A DNA stretch of 64,000 bases from Salinimonas chungwhensis DSM 16280 (GTDB taxonomy: Bacteria > Pseudomonadota > Gammaproteobacteria > Enterobacterales > Alteromonadaceae). The notes under the pieces are model-generated. The model saw only the letters and a program-made list of their open reading frames with translations, did no database searches and was not told the DNA's origin. The DNA is taken from NCBI RefSeq assembly GCF_000378185.1, contig NZ_KB899386.1, positions 1 through 64,000 of the forward strand, read 5' to 3'. This document shows positions 1 to 38,966 of this stretch, piece by piece. The translations under genes were made by a program, and so were the position numbers. Position 1 is the first letter of the stretch; each line of letters begins with the position of its first letter.

Positions 1-33
1 TCCGCATTTTCGTGGGTTAGCTGAAAGCCAGTG

Positions 34-43
34 CCATAATTAG
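34..43 (+). repeat. Left subterminal inverted repeat of the IS110-type element
   Basis: CCATAATTAG is the exact reverse complement of 1496-1505. The similarity continues outward as CAGTG here against CAGT on the other side, which supports a real element end rather than chance. Confidence 0.65.
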
Positions 44-75
44 TTTGCTTAAGACTAAATCATTTGGAGGCTAGC

Positions 76-1230
76 ATGAATAAACATAGCATGATTTTTA
101 TCGGCTTGGATACGCACAAGGAATTCCATGAAGTCGCGTATTGCGAAGAGCAACGCGGCGTAAGTCCTGTTCATTACGGACGCATCCCCTTTTAAAAAGT
201 CAGCTAGAAAAAGTTGCTTCGTCAGTTTGAATCGAAATACCCAGGCGCCACCCTTCACTTTGTTTATGAAGCTGGCCCCTGTGGCTACTGGATTTATCGG
301 CTCATTACCAGCCTAGGGCATTGTTGTTATGTGGTTGCTCCTTCTCTTATCCCTAAAAAGCCAGGTGAACGTGTAAAGACTGATCGCCGTGATGCGCTAA
401 AGCTTGTGAGGTTATTAAAGTCTGAAGATCTCACTCCTGTCTATGTGCCTGAGCCGGAAGATGAAGCTGTTCGGGATTTGTCCCGTGCTCGCGAAGCGGC
501 AATGAAGGATTTAAAAGAAGCTAAGTACCAGCTTAAGGCCCTGCTGCTTCGTAACAACACTCGTTACGAAGGTACTGCCAACTGGTCGAAGAAACATCTG
601 CGTTGGCTCACTGAGCTGATATTGCCTCATCCTGCACAGCAAATTGTTTTACAGGAACAACTGCAAACCATTGAAGAACGTATTCGGCGATTAGAGCGGT
701 TGGATAATGAGTTAACCCATCATGTTCATCACTGGCGTTACTACCCTGTGGTGAAAGCTATTCAGGCTATGCGTGGTGTCAGGTTGTTGGTGGCTGTCGG
801 CGTTGTCGCGGGATTAGGTGACCTGCACCGCTTCGACCATCCCAGAAAGCTCATGGCCTACTTAGGTTTAGTGCCCATTGAACAATCATCCGGTGGTAAA
901 CGTCATTTAGGGGCTATTACCAAAGCTGGAAACGGCCAGGCAAGACGGTTGCTGGTTGAAGGCGCACACAGTTATCGTTATCCGGCGAACGTCTCAACTG
1001 AATTGCAATTGCGCCAGGAAGGCTTACCCAAAGATATCGTTGATATTGCCTGGAAAGCACAGCTTCGCCTGTGCAAACGCTACCAGCGGATGAGCAAGAA
1101 AGGAAAACACTACAATCTCATTATTACGGCGATTGCCAGAGAAATGGCAGCTTACATCTGGGCTATCGCAAAAGAAGTGGTACTCACGCCCATCAATCCA
1201 AAACTCAGATTGAGTAGAGTGCCCGCATGA
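76..1230 (+). pseudogene. IS110/IS1111-family transposase, frameshifted
   Basis: Reading from ATG 76 (RBS GGAGG at 66-70) gives an N-terminal RuvC-like DEDD domain: D12 in GLDTHK, E65 in YEAGPCGYW, and D103/D106 in KTDRRDA. The C-terminal Transposase_20 domain has a serine-rich SSGGKRHLG segment, expected to hold the catalytic serine. The frame is interrupted by TAA at 193 and TAG at 205. Both disappear if one T is added to the T4 run at 190-193 and one A is removed from the A run at 208-212, which restores the expected residues FLKSQLEKLLRQF. Two compensating homopolymer indels therefore break the gene; they are either real decay or base-calling errors. The intact part from 214 onward lacks the first catalytic aspartate. 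Confidence 0.85.
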
Positions 1231-3628: not shown

Positions 3629-3644
3629 CTTGTACATGTACAAG
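3629..3644. repeat. 16-bp palindrome, copy 1
   Basis: CTTGTACATGTACAAG is a perfect inverted repeat, identical to copies at 4007-4022 and 4687-4702. The symmetry suggests a site for a dimeric DNA-binding protein. Confidence 0.8.
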
Positions 3645-3721
3645 AAGCTACTATTTGCCGAAGGTACAAAAACGTCAACCGAAAACGTCAACAGAATATT
3701 GTCTTAGCCCTTTCAAATTGA

Positions 3722-3758
3722 GCCCTCTAGGTGTGCGCGAGAGCCTCACCTAGAGGGC
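3722..3758. repeat. Perfect 12-bp-stem hairpin
   Basis: GCCCTCTAGGTG at 3722-3733 is the exact reverse complement of 3747-3758, with a 13-nt loop. No T-run follows on either strand, so it is not an obvious intrinsic terminator. Role unknown. Confidence 0.7.
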
Positions 3759-3994
3759 GTAGGATATAGCGTTTCGCTCATAATAGTGTCATAAGGGTAA
3801 AAGCATATGCCTAATTTGCGAGGTTAGAGCGGAGAACAGAGAGATGGAGACCCGGGGCGTTACTGTATTGCAGGCACATTGTAGTGGCAGATTAAATTAT
3901 TCCCACGTAAGCATGGTTTAACTGTATCTCCTCTGCTCATTTGCCGTAGGTTATAAAACTTATCGCTGTCAGTGTATCTTCAAACGTGACCACG

Positions 3995-4034
3995 CCCACT
4001 TAAGGTCTTGTACATGTACAAGACCTTAAGTGGG
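3995..4034. repeat. Perfect 40-bp palindrome containing copy 2 of the 16-bp palindrome
   Basis: Every base from 3995 to 4014 pairs with its mirror position from 4015 to 4034; the centre is the CATG of the shared 16-bp core CTTGTACATGTACAAG (4007-4022). No T-tract follows. It could bind a protein, extrude as a cruciform or act in DNA processing. Confidence 0.85.
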
Positions 4035-4355
4035 GAAACTTACTAAAATACCTATTAGGCTACTTAATTGTGATGAAGCGTAGAAAACATGTTTGACTGC
4101 GAACAACGGACGTTATGTTAAATAACTTTACTCGTCAAAAATTCGTCTTTTAGCTCCGGTAAATGGGGAGAAATGTACCTTCCACGGTAAATAAAAGCCC
4201 TATGTGTCAAAATAGAATCAGTTTGAAGTTCATAGGGACGAACAGTGCAACAGCCCGACTTACCATCACAACTTTTATAGCTTCGCTGTGACAAGCGAGT
4301 CAAGCTATCGTAGATGAGGTATAGATAGCGTTAACGAGCCATTTGAGTAAGAAGC

Positions 4356-4568
4356 ATGCAATTAGATGTAACAATTTTTTTTGATGAAAAACTGGGTTTT
4401 CATGTTTGCTGTCTAAAAGCTGACTATAGCCAACATGACAATGTAATGGATGCAAATTGTATCGTGGGGTTGGGCGAATCACTAGCTGGCGCTCGGGAAG
4501 ACTTTATCTTTAACTACCAGATCAGTATGGATGAGCTTAATTCCCTGGACGGCGATATAAAACATTAG
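4356..4568 (+). CDS. Hypothetical 70-aa protein
   Basis: The frame opens at ATG 4356 and encodes an acidic 70-residue protein with two predicted strands (LDVTIFFDE, FHVCCLKADY) followed by a helix-forming segment (ESLAGAREDFIFNY). The strand-strand-helix order with a helix like ALANAREAI is faintly reminiscent of HicB-type antitoxins, but no toxin-like partner is adjacent and the match is too weak to name. The RBS is poor. The base composition resembles the surrounding island. It may be a real small gene or a chance frame. Confidence 0.35.
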   Translation: MQLDVTIFFDEKLGFHVCCLKADYSQHDNVMDANCIVGLGESLAGAREDFIFNYQISMDELNSLDGDIKH

Positions 4569-4686
4569 TTTCCTCCCAGCTTTAACAAGTACAGCCTTAC
4601 GGGCATTTCTTAACGTACCTTTCCCAAACCAGGATAAAGCCTGAAGCGCCTGATCAGGTGCGACTTACCTATTAGCATCGTTATTT

Positions 4687-4702
4687 CTTGTACATGTACA
4701 AG
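4687..4702. repeat. 16-bp palindrome, copy 3
   Basis: CTTGTACATGTACAAG is identical to the cores at 3629-3644 and 4007-4022. This copy lies about 155 bp upstream of the DUF4224/integrase pair, so it could act on that operon. Confidence 0.8.
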
Positions 4703-4857
4703 TTGCATCTAATGCCAGTCGAGGTGTTTGCATTTTCAGCACCCAACTTTATTTTTTTTGCTGCGCTCACTACCAAAAATCCCGCGTAATCTGACTATAG
4801 TTTTAAACCAGAGGGAAATTTTAGGAACACTCCCTCTCAGATCGTAGAGATGTCAGT

Positions 4858-5092: not shown

Positions 5093-6118
5093 ATGGGACG
5101 ACCCAGAAAAGAAGTCAACAAGTCTTTACCAGTCGGAATGTACTACAACGAAAAGGGTAAGACATTTTATTTGAGAAGTGCGAATAGTGGTGATATCAAC
5201 CTAGGAAAAGTCAAAGCTACGGCAATACAAAAATACTATCACGCCATAGATAGAGAATGTGAGGGATTTATAGTGGCTGATCTAATCGAACGGTATATGG
5301 AAGAAATATCACCAACATTATCAGTGTCGACGCATAAAACCAGTATTCCTAGAGCGAGAAAATTATTAGTTGCGTTTGGTGACTTCCCTTTAGAAGACTT
5401 AAAAACGAAGGATATTCAAAAATACTTGGACTATCGTAGAAAAACTCCCGTGGATGCAAATAGAACAGTAGCACTATTAAGTTCGATGTATACCGCAGCT
5501 GAGAGATGGGGATACATTGACAGAGTACCTTTCAAGAAAATTAAATTTCATAAAGAAGAGCCTCGCAAACGCATTGTAAAAATGTCCGAGATCGATATTT
5601 TTAAAGAATTTTGTCCTTCATGGATGTGCCTGTTTATTGATTTGAAATTCAGTACCGGACTACGGCAGAAAGACATTCGCGAGCTGACCACTGAAAATTG
5701 GAATCCATCTGTGGGGTTAATGGTTCAAGCATCAAAAAGTCAGCATAGAACGTGCTTTGATAAGTGTATCGAACTTGTATCATTGATAGAAGAGATCGAG
5801 AGGGCTGCTGCCACTAGGTGGAAGAAAGGTACGGCTACTCCTAAACCGCTATTTCCCAACAAAAAAGGGGGAGCTTATACACCTAGTGGATTTCAATCTA
5901 TGTGGCAGAAAAGAATGCAAAAAGCATTGAAGTCAGGTAAATTAAAAGAAAGATTCAGAGAACATGACATTCGTGCCATGGCAGCGACTAATAGGCCTGA
6001 TTTGGAAGATGCCAGGCGCTTGATGGGCCATAAAGAAGCAAGTACAACACTTCGAAATTATCGAAGAGGGTACGAGCACGTAATGCCTAATAGAAGCGTT
6101 GTATCAACGCTTCTATAA
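5093..6118 (+). CDS. int: Tyrosine recombinase/integrase of the genomic island
   Basis: The start is ATG 5093, preceded by GGAGAGC, giving 341 residues. The N-terminal part (MGRPRKEVNKSLPVGMYY) resembles arm-type DNA-binding domains; a SAM-like core-binding domain follows at about 60-150. The catalytic domain shows the first arginine in STGLRQKDI, HDIR for H-x-x-R, LMGHKEAS for the second histidine, and the tyrosine nucleophile in TTLRNYRRGY. It would catalyse site-specific integration and excision at the tRNA-Phe 3' end located 117 bp downstream. It is preceded by a DUF4224 gene. All catalytic residues appear intact. Confidence 0.9.
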   Translation: MGRPRKEVNKSLPVGMYYNEKGKTFYLRSANSGDINLGKVKATAIQKYYHAIDRECEGFIVADLIERYMEEISPTLSVSTHKTSIPRARKLLVAFGDFPLEDLKTKDIQKYLDYRRKTPVDANRTVALLSSMYTAAERWGYIDRVPFKKIKFHKEEPRKRIVKMSEIDIFKEFCPSWMCLFIDLKFSTGLRQKDIRELTTENWNPSVGLMVQASKSQHRTCFDKCIELVSLIEEIERAAATRWKKGTATPKPLFPNKKGGAYTPSGFQSMWQKRMQKALKSGKLKERFREHDIRAMAATNRPDLEDARRLMGHKEASTTLRNYRRGYEHVMPNRSVVSTLL

Positions 6119-6234: not shown

Positions 6235-6281
6235 GATTGAAAATCCGCGTGTCCCTGGTTCGATTCCGGGTCGAGGCACCA
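6235..6281 (+). other. Island attachment site: 3' part of tRNA-Phe
   Basis: Positions 6235-6281 read as tRNA-Phe from the anticodon arm onward: GATTGAAAATC gives anticodon GAA, then the variable loop, a T-arm with GTTCGATTC, the acceptor strand TCGAGGC and ACCA. The sequence upstream (6190-6234) does not form the 5' half of a tRNA, so this is a fragment, as left when an element integrates into a tRNA gene. The element would lie to the left, with the regenerated full gene outside the window. Confidence 0.85.
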
Positions 6282-6289
6282 TTATTCCT

Positions 6290-6477: not shown

Positions 6478-6977
6478 TGCATATCAAAAAATTAGCGGTA
6501 GTTTTTTTTACTCATGTCCGCGCCTGCATTTGCAGATAATGCATCAAAGCACGACAAAATTGTTGAGCTGATAGAAATCATTAATCTGGATTCAGTAGTA
6601 GACGCGATGTATTCAAGCGCACAGATGATAAAGGATAATAGATCTGTTTCCTCTGATCTTAACCCTTCTGAACAAACCATTGTCGATAAATATGATACAA
6701 AACTGCTCGATTTGATTAAGCGGGAACTTAGTTGGAAAAAGATGCAGCCGGATATGGTCGATATTTATGCAAAATATTTTCAGAAGCAGAAATTGCCGAT
6801 ATGCTGGCATTCTACCAAACTGAAACAGGGCAGAAGATGATTCACAAGATGCCGGAGATTTCTCAGGAGTCTTTTGCCCTGACACAATCACTCATGCAGG
6901 ACGTAATACCCAGGATCAAGGCTATTTCACGTCAGCGTAGCGAAGCACTTAATGCCGCTCGGCAGAGTGGAGAATAA
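6478..6977 (+). pseudogene. DUF2059 exported protein, two frameshifts
   Basis: The gene opens at ATG 6478 (MHIKKLAVV). Removing one T from the T8 run at 6502-6509 restores a signal peptide ending VVFLLMSAPAFA, and adding one T to the T4 run near 6778-6781 joins YAKYF to SEAEIADMLAFYQTETGQ. The restored protein of about 166 residues is a DUF2059 periplasmic protein: an N-terminal secretion signal, a helical DUF2059 core and a FYQTETGQKMI motif. Function of the family is unknown. Both lesions are single-base homopolymer changes, so sequencing error is as likely as true gene decay. It is a stand-alone gene between the island end and the uronate locus. Confidence 0.75.
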
Positions 6978-8093: not shown

Positions 8094-9554
8094 TCACAAT
8101 GTTGCAAGACATTGCTCAGCATTATCACTATCTATCGTTGCCAGCTTATTGAGTTGAATGAGTACCGTTTCGCGAAATTCTGTATTGTCAGTTAACCCAC
8201 CAAAGATGCGTTTTTCGTTCAAAATGCGCTTACCTACTTCTTCAATATCCTCTGGATTAGCGGTTACCACGCCTGCTAATAAATCTGCCATGGGATCAGT
8301 AATCTTTCTTTTTGCCTGCACTGCTCTAATAACAAAAAGTATCCACGCTGCTACGACGGCACAAAGCAGGCTGATGCTTCGATTTTCTTCAATATTGTCT
8401 TTGATAGTGCCAAGAATGCGCGGCGGCAATTTCTGTGAACCATCCCAGGCAATCTGCGACAGTAAATGGTGAATATGTTTATTCTCAAACCGCTTAAGAA
8501 TGGCTTTCGCATAGTCTCCAGGAACCAGTGCCGCATCATGTTGTAACGTGGGCAAAATTTCCTGCTTGAGAAGACGGGTGATGAAATCGCTCATCGAATT
8601 GTGGGTGATGGCGTCAAACACGGTACGCATTTCACATAAACTACCCAGATAGGCAAGGGCTGAGTGCGTACCGTTCAATACCCGAAGTTTTGCGTTTTCG
8701 AAGATGTGCACATTGTCTGTAAAGACCACCCCGGCATTTTCCCAGGCAGGACGGGGGCCGCTAAAGTTATTTTCAATTACCCACTGAGAAAATGCTTCGC
8801 GCTGAACCGGCCATCTATCTTCTAACCCGGTTGCCTTTATGGTGGCTTTTTCAAGCGCTTCATCTGAAGCGGGTGTGATGCTATCCACCATCGTATTGGG
8901 AAAGCTGATGGTTTGCGCAATCCACTGGCTCACCGCCGGGTCATACCTGGCGGCAAACCGCTTTACTGCACGGTATAATTTGTCGCCATTTTCTGGCAGG
9001 TTGTCGCAACTGACTACTGTCAGTTCGTTATAGCCAGCTTTACGCCGTGTTGCCAATGCGGCCACAAGCAGGCCAATGGCTGATACTGGCGTGTCGGGGT
9101 GGGCAAGATCATGCTCAATATCCGCATGAGTAAGATCAAGCTCGCCCTGATTATTCAGACAATAGCCTTTTTCTGTAATGGTCAGGGTGATGATGGCGGT
9201 TTGCCGCGCCGTCATGCGGTCCATAACCCGCTGTCGATCGTCCTGCAAGACAAGTATTTCTTTAATAATGCCGACAATACTAACCTGAGGCTCGTCATCC
9301 AAAACCATTAAAGTATAAAGATTATCCTGCTCAGCTAACGCCTGTTTGAGTGTCGGGCTTCTCAGCGACACTGCGCTGATGCACCATTGTCCGCCATCGC
9401 GGGCAACCTGTTGTGTATACATTGCCTGGTGGGCCCGGTGAAATGCGCCCGGCCCTAAGTGAACAATGCCGATATCTGTACTTTGCCGGTCATAATCTGG
9501 CCTGGCTACATTTGCCGGTAATTTATGCAACGACTGATTAGTTAATCGGGTCAT
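8094..9554 (-). CDS. uxuB: Mannitol dehydrogenase-family oxidoreductase, fructuronate reductase
   Basis: The 486-residue protein belongs to the long-chain mannitol dehydrogenase family. The Rossmann motif HLGPGAFHRAHQ at residues 32-43 binds NAD(H), and the C-terminal domain carries KLRVLNGTHSALAYLG with the conserved Asn/His region. Between an isomerase and a KDG kinase gene the expected reaction is D-fructuronate to D-mannonate with NADH. Tagaturonate or mannitol would be alternatives, but the neighbouring mannonate dehydratase supports fructuronate. It starts 2 bp after the uxaC stop codon and lies in the same operon. The length agrees with the family. Confidence 0.88.
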   Translation of the reverse strand: MTRLTNQSLHKLPANVARPDYDRQSTDIGIVHLGPGAFHRAHQAMYTQQVARDGGQWCISAVSLRSPTLKQALAEQDNLYTLMVLDDEPQVSIVGIIKEILVLQDDRQRVMDRMTARQTAIITLTITEKGYCLNNQGELDLTHADIEHDLAHPDTPVSAIGLLVAALATRRKAGYNELTVVSCDNLPENGDKLYRAVKRFAARYDPAVSQWIAQTISFPNTMVDSITPASDEALEKATIKATGLEDRWPVQREAFSQWVIENNFSGPRPAWENAGVVFTDNVHIFENAKLRVLNGTHSALAYLGSLCEMRTVFDAITHNSMSDFITRLLKQEILPTLQHDAALVPGDYAKAILKRFENKHIHHLLSQIAWDGSQKLPPRILGTIKDNIEENRSISLLCAVVAAWILFVIRAVQAKRKITDPMADLLAGVVTANPEDIEEVGKRILNEKRIFGGLTDNTEFRETVLIQLNKLATIDSDNAEQCLATL

Positions 9555-37346: not shown

Positions 37347-38966
37347 TTAAACCCGGAACTGTCTGGCGATAGACTCAAGCTTGGTTGCCAAATCGGCCAG
37401 CTGATGACTGGCAGATGCAAGCTCCTGAGAGTCCTTACTGGTTTCTTCAGTACGCTGAAATATTGCATCTACGCTGTTCACGATGTTGCGAGACGTCGCT
37501 TGCTGAGAGTCTGTTGAAGCTGCAATTTGCGCGTTCATCTGGCTTATCTGATCAATAGTTTGCGTGATTGTGTCCAGACTATGGCCAGCAAGGTTCGCGG
37601 TATCGACGCTTTCCCTGGCCTTTTCATTGCCTTTATTCATGACTGTTACAGCCGATTGCGCGGCGCTTTGCAAACGTTCTATTGTGTTCTGAATTTCTTC
37701 TGTTGACTGCTGAGTCCGTGATGCCAGGGTGCGAACTTCATCGGCCACCACAGCGAACCCCCGGCCCTGTTCACCGGCACGGGCTGCCTCAATAGCAGCA
37801 TTGAGTGCCAGCAAATTGGTTTGTTCCGCGATACCTTTAATGACATCCAGTACCACACCAACCTGATTAGAATCATTCTCCAGTTTTTGGATAACATCGG
37901 CCGTCTCTGCCACGTTTTCAGCCAGGCTCTGGATACTACTGACCGTATTGCCTACAACCCGCTTGCCTTCGTTGGCAGCATCTGCAGCTTCGTTAGCAGC
38001 CGTTGAGGCTTCTGCTGCATTATGAGCTACCTGATAGACCGACTGGCTCATCTGTTCTACTGCAGATTTCGCTTCTGTAGCGGATTCCTGCTGATTCTTG
38101 ATGGTACGATTGGTATCTGTGGTCAGCGTGTTTAAGTTCTGGGCCAGCGAGGACAGGGGAAGGGTGGTATCCACAATGTCTTTGACCAGGTTTTGCAGGC
38201 GCTCCATAAACCGGTTGAAGTAAGTGACCAATTCGCCCACTTCATCTTTGGAGTTAGACTCGATACGTACCGTCAAATCACCATTTTCTTCAGCGATATT
38301 TCGTAAAGAACTCACTACCCGGTTCAGGTTACCGCGAATTTCAGAAACAATCGGCCAGGCAGTAGCAAACAAGATAATTGTAGTGAGCAAGCCCATGATA
38401 ATGCCTAGTAGCAGCAGAAACTGCTGCGCATCATTGTAATCCTCAAAAGCTTTATCAAAGGCTTCAGCACGGCGTTGTTTAAAATTGTTTAAATGGGAAG
38501 TAACTTCTTCATAACGCTGGTTCATTGTTTCCAGCTGTGTGCTAAGCGTGGAAAAATCAGCCGTGTCGTTAAGCATTGATGTAGTAATCTGATTAGCCAA
38601 CACATAGTAGGCATCAAACTCAGCCAGAATATCGTTAACTTCCGCAGAAAGTTCAGGGTCGATACTTTCTATCTGAGCCAGCCGTTGTTCTGTTTTTTCA
38701 GCTGACTGCCTGGCCAGTGTCAGCGCGTCAGTATCACCGGTAGTCACAGCACCGGCAAGTGTATCTCTGACTTTTTCCATAGACACCAGCGCTTCAGAGC
38801 TTAACTGTAAAGCTGGAAAATCTACATTTTTTGCTGCTTCAAGCTGTTGGGCGTTCTGGCTTGAAATATAGCTGTTGATGACGACAAAAATGAGAAAGCT
38901 GGCAGCGCCAATGATGGGAATTAGAAAAATCTTTTTTGCCACTGATAAATTCAGAAGAAACTTCAT
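37347..38966 (-). CDS. Methyl-accepting chemotaxis protein
   Basis: The 539-residue chemoreceptor has an N-terminal transmembrane helix (about 12-34), a helical periplasmic sensor of about 145 residues (four-helix-bundle type), a second membrane helix (about 187-207), a HAMP domain and a long cytoplasmic coiled coil with the highly conserved tip [20 protein letters not shown] (about residue 385-405). It ends in a short tail without the NWETF-type CheR/CheB pentapeptide. It senses an unknown ligand and signals to CheA/CheW. The gene stands alone, with its terminator downstream. The neighbouring porin operon may be coincidental. Confidence 0.93.

Follow-up and report, generated by a model that had tools for sequence, protein, structure and literature searches.

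Upstream of a gene pair encoding a DUF4224 protein and a tyrosine integrase, the DNA analysed here carries three identical copies of a 16-bp palindrome, CTTGTACATGTACAAG, and the question raised by this locus is which protein recognizes these sites and why a mobile element should carry them. The initial annotation of the sequence had offered several answers, namely sites for an island-borne regulator, for an excision or replication factor, or for cruciform-dependent processing. The analysis presented here points in another direction: the palindromes are probably copies of the parS/operator site of Alteromonas conjugative plasmids, carried at a tRNA-Phe gene by an integrative mobilizable island about 9.65 kb long. 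By analogy with a known island, the element probably carries the plasmid's tag in order to exploit the plasmid's machinery for inheritance and transfer. In the following, the window is the whole 64-kb stretch of DNA that was analysed, and its relevant features are listed in Table 1.

The repeated palindrome in the window and in its own genome

Three exact copies of a 16-mer had been judged to be beyond chance, and the numbers agree, base composition predicting 1.8e-5 exact occurrences of CTTGTACATGTACAAG per 64 kb. No further similar site with up to three mismatches exists in the window; in shuffled windows the mean number of matches at this tolerance was 0.25, and three were reached in one of 100 shuffles. 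The shuffles and the expected count together rule out a chance repeat. Perfect 16-bp palindromes occur five times in the window (the three copies of CTTGTACATGTACAAG and two single ones), and among the 14-bp palindromes the core of CTTGTACATGTACAAG is the sole repeated one. The palindrome is not scattered evenly over the genome, as the whole 3.99-Mb assembly (G000) holds the three island copies and no other. A site for a host regulator is unlikely, given this lack of other copies in G000 and the presence of the 16-mer in only three of 395 genomes of the family.

The perfect 40-bp palindrome reported around the middle copy exists as described. Sites 1 and 3 are palindromic over 16 bp only, so that the extension belongs to one copy in three, and cruciform-forming processing sites become an unneeded idea; a terminator was likewise rejected, a simple scan showing none at this position. 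The description of the stretch as gene-poor is mostly fair, but it overlooks an oriT-like element and a 70-aa ORF.

Table 1. Features of the island and its borders in the 64-kb window.
Feature	Position	Strand	Remarks
IS110-type transposase gene	1-1230		At contig end
parS-like site 1	3629..3644	no strand	CTTGTACATGTACAAG; ~20 bp from oriT-like element
oriT-like element	3665..3759	no strand	Two 13-bp direct repeats and an inverted repeat
Perfect 40-bp palindrome	3995..4034	no strand	Core 4007-4022 is parS-like site 2
70-aa ORF	4356..4568	+	46% over 65 aa to plasmid ORF C13_5670_5903; no Pfam match
parS-like site 3	4687..4702	no strand	CTTGTACATGTACAAG; ~155 bp upstream of DUF4224 gene
DUF4224 protein, 77 aa	4858..5091	+	PF13986, E=2.3e-14
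Island tyrosine integrase	5093..6118	+	ORF open from 5075; PF00589, E=7.4e-10
attR	6235..6287	no strand	53-bp repeat of tRNA-Phe 3' end

Borders and genes of the island

The intact tRNA-Phe gene and the other end of the island lie on a second contig of the same assembly, G000:C13. The two contigs overlap by 398 bp, which open the window and close G000:C13 and reach into the IS110-type transposase gene; the island measures about 9.65 kb if these 398 bp represent one copy. A replicase encoded near the other end is 50% identical to the plasmid replicase described below. The island combines an integrase with att direct repeats at a tRNA gene, as expected of an integrative mobilizable element. To judge by its position, the DUF4224 protein may act together with the integrase. 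Two observations concern the surroundings: two minus-strand ORFs at 1611-2821, encoding a DUF4145 protein and a GNAT acetyltransferase, show a spacing that looks like that of integron cassettes, and directly to the right of the island, at 6514-6977, two overlapping frames look like one small frameshifted protein.

Distribution of the 16-mer

In the genus, three of 59 genomes contain the 16-mer: G000, with its three island copies; G014, with 12 copies on one contig; and G019, with one chromosomal copy, around which blastn against plasmids finds nothing beyond the site itself. The family adds no genome to these three. A wider search found the 16-mer in 10 viral stretches and 49 stretches of genome contigs; seven of the latter are from the plasmid contig of Alteromonas indica, while the other 42 and the viral ones represent scattered singles. 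Across the resulting 59 loci, each of at most 10 kb, a second core was present at the A. indica loci alone, which led to rejection of a general phage or bacterial motif. CTTGTACATGTACAAG marks mobile elements. The picture is less clean in one respect, as single exact copies were also noted on each of five contigs of one uncultured Prevotellaceae MAG (L047, L048, L060, L076 and L081), possibly an unrelated use of an identical palindrome, and in several Paenibacillus and Veillonella species. The 1.1-kb island stretch as a whole has no DNA similarity to the plasmids of PLSDB.

A plasmid family with a dozen sites

The 12 copies in G014 lie on G014:C13, a plasmid-like contig of 73,583 bp that corresponds to A. 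indica PYVY01000020.1, has 38-bp tandem repeats at both ends and encodes a Rep3-type initiator, a replicase-primase protein, ParA and a ParB-domain protein; a thirteenth site differs from CTTGTACATGTACAAG in an outer base. A related plasmid, pKD03 of A. macleodii (77,913 bp, circular), has 12 copies of the common 14-bp core, and in 11 of them the outer pair C...G is replaced by T...A, giving TTTGTACATGTACAAA; the twelfth has T...T. The third member, contig G038:C21 (75,060 bp), carries nine copies of TTCTACATGAAGAA, whose symmetry is incomplete, plus two forms with one mismatch; two further matches with two mismatches look like chance. The palindromes extend to 14-20 bp on the A. indica contig and pKD03, and to 18-26 bp at the integrase loci described below.

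Counterparts of the sites were judged by reading gene maps, without a formal test. By this measure, the A. indica plasmid has a matching site at the homologous position for 10 of 12 pKD03 sites and for five of 11 G038:C21 sites. Unmatched are the sites at 935 and 57575 in pKD03, those at 8210, 25017 and 28150 in the A. indica plasmid and, in G038:C21, a further six, of which three precede an EAL gene, one is inside traD and two are at 37931 and 71916. All three plasmids have a site at the start of parA and another inside the relaxase-like gene, the latter at an identical offset of 258 bp in two of them, and several sites fall within coding regions or directly past gene ends. The sites thus change together from plasmid to plasmid, and this concerted change suggests that a plasmid-encoded binding protein changes with them.

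Further members were sought in several collections. With ParB as the query in PLSDB, pKD03 alone matched over most of the protein and 18 other records matched part of it weakly, and two other queries returned pKD03 only. Matches were found in two of 395 family genomes (E<=1e-12) and in one of 394 order genomes (E<=1e-25), and a search of viral contigs and phages for the plasmid family gave partial or distant matches only. Two sets of sequences served as negative controls for the palindrome scan: no repeated 14-bp palindrome was seen in five plasmids with related recombinases (one of them scanned in part), and among 21 viral stretches with a ParB relative a palindrome repeat was seen in one, as a low-complexity overlap. 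In G000, no plasmid of this family was found.

ParB as the candidate binding protein

IncC plasmids offer a point of comparison. As a positive control for the method, the first 50 kb of the IncC plasmid R55 were scanned blindly for palindromes, and TTTCACATGTGAAA was returned eight times, in seven cases within CTTTCACATGTGAAAG. This core is the one published for 14 IncC and two SGI1 parS sites (PMC10954446). Binding by ParB was shown for three selected sites, and the 14-bp core alone was unbound, flanking bases being required (PMC10954446). The layout TT-NNN-CATG-NNN-AA is common to the R55 core and to the repeated palindromes described here. Since the R55 scan yields a ParB-site core of matching layout, the palindromes most likely serve the plasmid's ParB as sites of the parS type.

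The proteins themselves are consistent with this assignment. A profile of the three plasmid ParBs matches R55 ParB over 143 columns (probability 96, E=4.7e-9), and against the PDB its best matches are solved ParBs (E=1e-13), with KorB 8qa8 as a weak match (E=5.6e-4). The ParB N-terminal domain PF02195 is found in two of the plasmid ParBs (E=1.1e-10 and 3.1e-12), and that of G038, which is 25-28% identical to the other two, scores 19.3 bits, under the cut-off of 26.3. The KorB model PF08535 matches R55 ParB and none of the ParBs of A. indica C13, pKD03 and G038. A parA gene adjoins parB in all three plasmids. In G000, the search for a plasmid ParB gave a weak chromosomal-type match only, and none at E<=1e-12. 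Among the plasmid proteins, ParB is therefore the best candidate for the binder. Of the ideas put forward in the initial annotation, that of a protein-binding site holds in so far as the sites are tied to mobile elements, but the protein that binds them is more likely a conjugative plasmid's ParB than an island-borne regulator.

An oriT-like element and a tyrosine-recombinase-type protein

The oriT-like element next to site 1 comprises 13-bp direct repeats at 3669-3681 and 3682-3694 and a 12-bp inverted repeat at 3722-3733 and 3747-3758, with a 13-nt spacer. It is 78% identical over 97 bp to G014:C13 3220-3126 and 84% over 38 bp to pKD03 4700-4737; in PLSDB, the oriT-like part found pKD03 only, at E=0.09. 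The exact inverted-repeat pattern occurs in two of 59 genus genomes and in two viral stretches. On the plasmids, the element is followed by an 80-aa gene and by the gene of a 313-aa tyrosine recombinase. A 74-bp tandem repeat of 4.4 copies adjoins the element on the A. indica plasmid contig (L026 2684-3006).

pKD03 has a set of transfer genes, lists no relaxase among its genes and is typed as non-mobilizable by MOB-suite. Pfam revealed no classical relaxase among 20 further proteins, either from the A. indica contig or relatives of such proteins, which represent a subset of the ORFs. Relatives of the 313-aa protein occur in 158 PLSDB plasmids, of which 144 are typed as non-mobilizable. A perfect inverted repeat with arms of at least 12 bp is present in nine of 13 upstream regions compared, namely those of the three plasmids, of this island, of G039, where it is far upstream and has a spacer of 21 nt, and of Klebsiella, Vibrio and two Shewanella plasmids; it is absent upstream in G024, G047, pPL-24mi and pVS127. 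Residues R163, K202, H268, R271, H302 and Y311 are invariant in all six aligned recombinase-type proteins, and this set is taken here to be that of the tyrosine-recombinase catalytic residues. A SAM-like core-binding domain was sought in four of the six, with no match in three and Phage_int_SAM_1 below the cut-off in the Klebsiella protein. A catalytic pentad plus tyrosine is given for tyrosine recombinases (PMC8152469), and a tyrosine-recombinase relaxase with its own oriT is known in MobK of pIGRK (PMC8152469). The likeness to the MobK, MpsA and TcpM relaxases is that of a tyrosine-recombinase protein beside a non-coding repeat element (PMC8152469, PMC9299015), on plasmids that here are without an annotated classical relaxase. 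Two plasmids with relatives of the 313-aa protein also carry a MOBH relaxase, and another role for this protein is therefore possible. From its similarity to the plasmid element, the oriT-like element is likely a copy of the plasmid's transfer origin.

Palindromes at related integrase loci

Relatives of the integrase (E<=1e-20) are present in four of 58 other genus genomes, G031, G024, G047 and G039, and palindromes were counted within 10-14 kb around each. It had been suggested to look for the 16-mer near related integrases; its exact form is absent at the four loci, but each has two to three repeated CATG-centred palindromes of variant sequence. The G031 locus has three copies of TTTGTACATGTACAAA, the pKD03 type; the G024 locus has two copies of ATTAGGCATGCCTAAT, the G047 locus two of ATTAGGCATGCCTAAT and one TTTGGCATGCCAAA, and the G039 locus two of TTTGTGCATGCACAAA. 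TTAGGCATGCCTAA occurs in eight of 59 genomes, singly in six and twice only in G024 and G047, and TTGTGCATGCACAA has two copies in G039 and one in G043. Because the G024 and G047 loci are nearly identical over long stretches, the four loci represent about three independent lineages.

A tRNA-Phe gene adjoins the integrase in G024 and G047, and G031 matches that DNA; no tRNA gene was seen beside the G039 integrase, which is only 30% identical and is split into two frames. In G024 and G047 the palindromes lie next to a resolvase gene, at a distance of 4-5 kb from the integrase; in each of these two genomes the pair sits between a 193-aa ORF and the resolvase gene, its members 249 bp apart and embedded in longer repeat units that resemble each other (L120 4500-4830 and L121 5540-5870, respectively). 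In G031, one of the sites precedes the DUF4224 gene by about 140 bp. The G047 and G039 loci themselves encode a protein of the 313-aa type, and the oriT-like element of the plasmids has no match at any of the four loci. DUF4224 and the integrase were the only island genes seen in common between this island and the sibling loci (ORFs of at least 60 aa). Helper plasmids for the G024/G047 and G039 palindrome types were not found in the 59 genomes.

Alternative readings and a proposed mechanism

The plasmid might also encode a transcription factor other than ParB, such as an activator or repressor of transfer, for which the sites are operators and through which the island would sense its helper much as SGI1 does with AcaCD. 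The position of site 3 about 155 bp upstream of the DUF4224/integrase pair, the comparable position of the G031 site and the presence on all three plasmids of a conserved 404-aa protein with sub-threshold helix-turn-helix hints (Rep being conserved there as well) would suit such a factor. It is nevertheless unlikely, as several sites lie in coding regions or after gene ends, unlike promoter operators, and their layout is the one published for ParB sites of IncC (PMC10954446). Operators of an island-encoded excision regulator, with no link to a plasmid, would suit the difference of the palindromes between sibling loci, and the two sites between the 193-aa ORF and the resolvase gene in G024/G047 would fit; yet DUF4224 and the integrase were the sole genes that the loci were seen to have in common, and both GTA-type variants are repeated 12-13 times on two plasmids, which leaves this reading with little probability. 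Least probable of all is an island that is the decayed remnant of an integrated plasmid, its sites being relics and no mimics: the oriT-like element, the replicase homologue and the small plasmid-related ORF would fit, but the island possesses an integrase and att repeats of its own at tRNA-Phe, as at related loci, and its three sites are all perfect, although blastn around them finds little plasmid similarity other than in the sites themselves, the small ORF and the oriT-like element.

If the palindromes are copies of the plasmid's parS-type site, the following sequence of events may be proposed. The ParB of an incoming plasmid would bind the three sites of the island, the plasmid's tyrosine-recombinase-type relaxase would act on the island's copy of oriT, and the island would exit via the plasmid's type IV secretion system. 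Because of the analogy with the parS copies of SGI1, it is further proposed that bound ParB would help to partition and stabilise the excised island and that the island's sites would compete with the helper plasmid for ParB. Site 3 may tie excision to the presence of the helper. A broader and more tentative idea, held a little short of an even chance, is that tRNA-Phe islands in Alteromonas form a class of partition-site mimics, each tuned to one helper lineage by the three-base code in TT-NNN-CATG-NNN-AA plus the outer pair; plasmids would rewrite their dozen sites together with ParB and the islands would follow, as in an arms race.

If this reading is correct, parS mimicry is wider than SGI1 and IncC and extends to marine bacteria whose island and plasmid family are unrelated to these, and the helper plasmid can be read from the palindrome. 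The roughly dozen sites of each plasmid, changing in concert, represent a natural experiment on the evolution of ParB specificity. A search of the PMC literature, with subscription papers and preprints outside its scope, found no report of this island and plasmid.

Comparison with known systems

Several known systems share part of this arrangement. KorB acts on RP4/RK2 (IncP) at 12 palindromic 13-bp operators, as cited in PMC10954446, and the likeness is that a protein of the ParB family has roughly a dozen palindromic sites at scattered positions of a conjugative plasmid; the differences are the length of the sites and the lack of a match between the present ParBs and the Pfam KorB model. In NAH7, ParB acts on conjugation genes and its sites are near transfer and partition genes of a conjugative plasmid, as several are here, and identical copies of its parS are also found on chromosomes (PMC12421886). 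Mimicry of a helper by an island does not figure in the account of NAH7 drawn on here.

The closest parallel is SGI1, a well-studied mobilizable island of Salmonella with two copies of the scattered parS of its IncA/IncC helper (PMC10954446). Of the 14 parS copies of the IncC helper, four lie within ORFs and one is at the parA promoter, and through its two copies SGI1 uses the plasmid's ParABS system and weakens the helper, as shown by experiment; SGI1 also encodes MpsA, a presumed relaxase of tyrosine-recombinase type (PMC10954446). Similar Par features were previously unidentified in mobilizable islands, as stated in PMC10954446. The present island, in a like manner, has three exact copies of a site scattered 12 times on the A. 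indica contig, and the core form TT-NNN-CATG-NNN-AA is found in both systems (PMC10954446). It differs in its insertion at tRNA-Phe, its DUF4224/integrase pair there, its other plasmid family and the several site variants among related loci. The arrangement therefore resembles the mimicry of IncC parS by SGI1, but with an unrelated island and plasmid family, in which ParB would be the protein that binds the sites.
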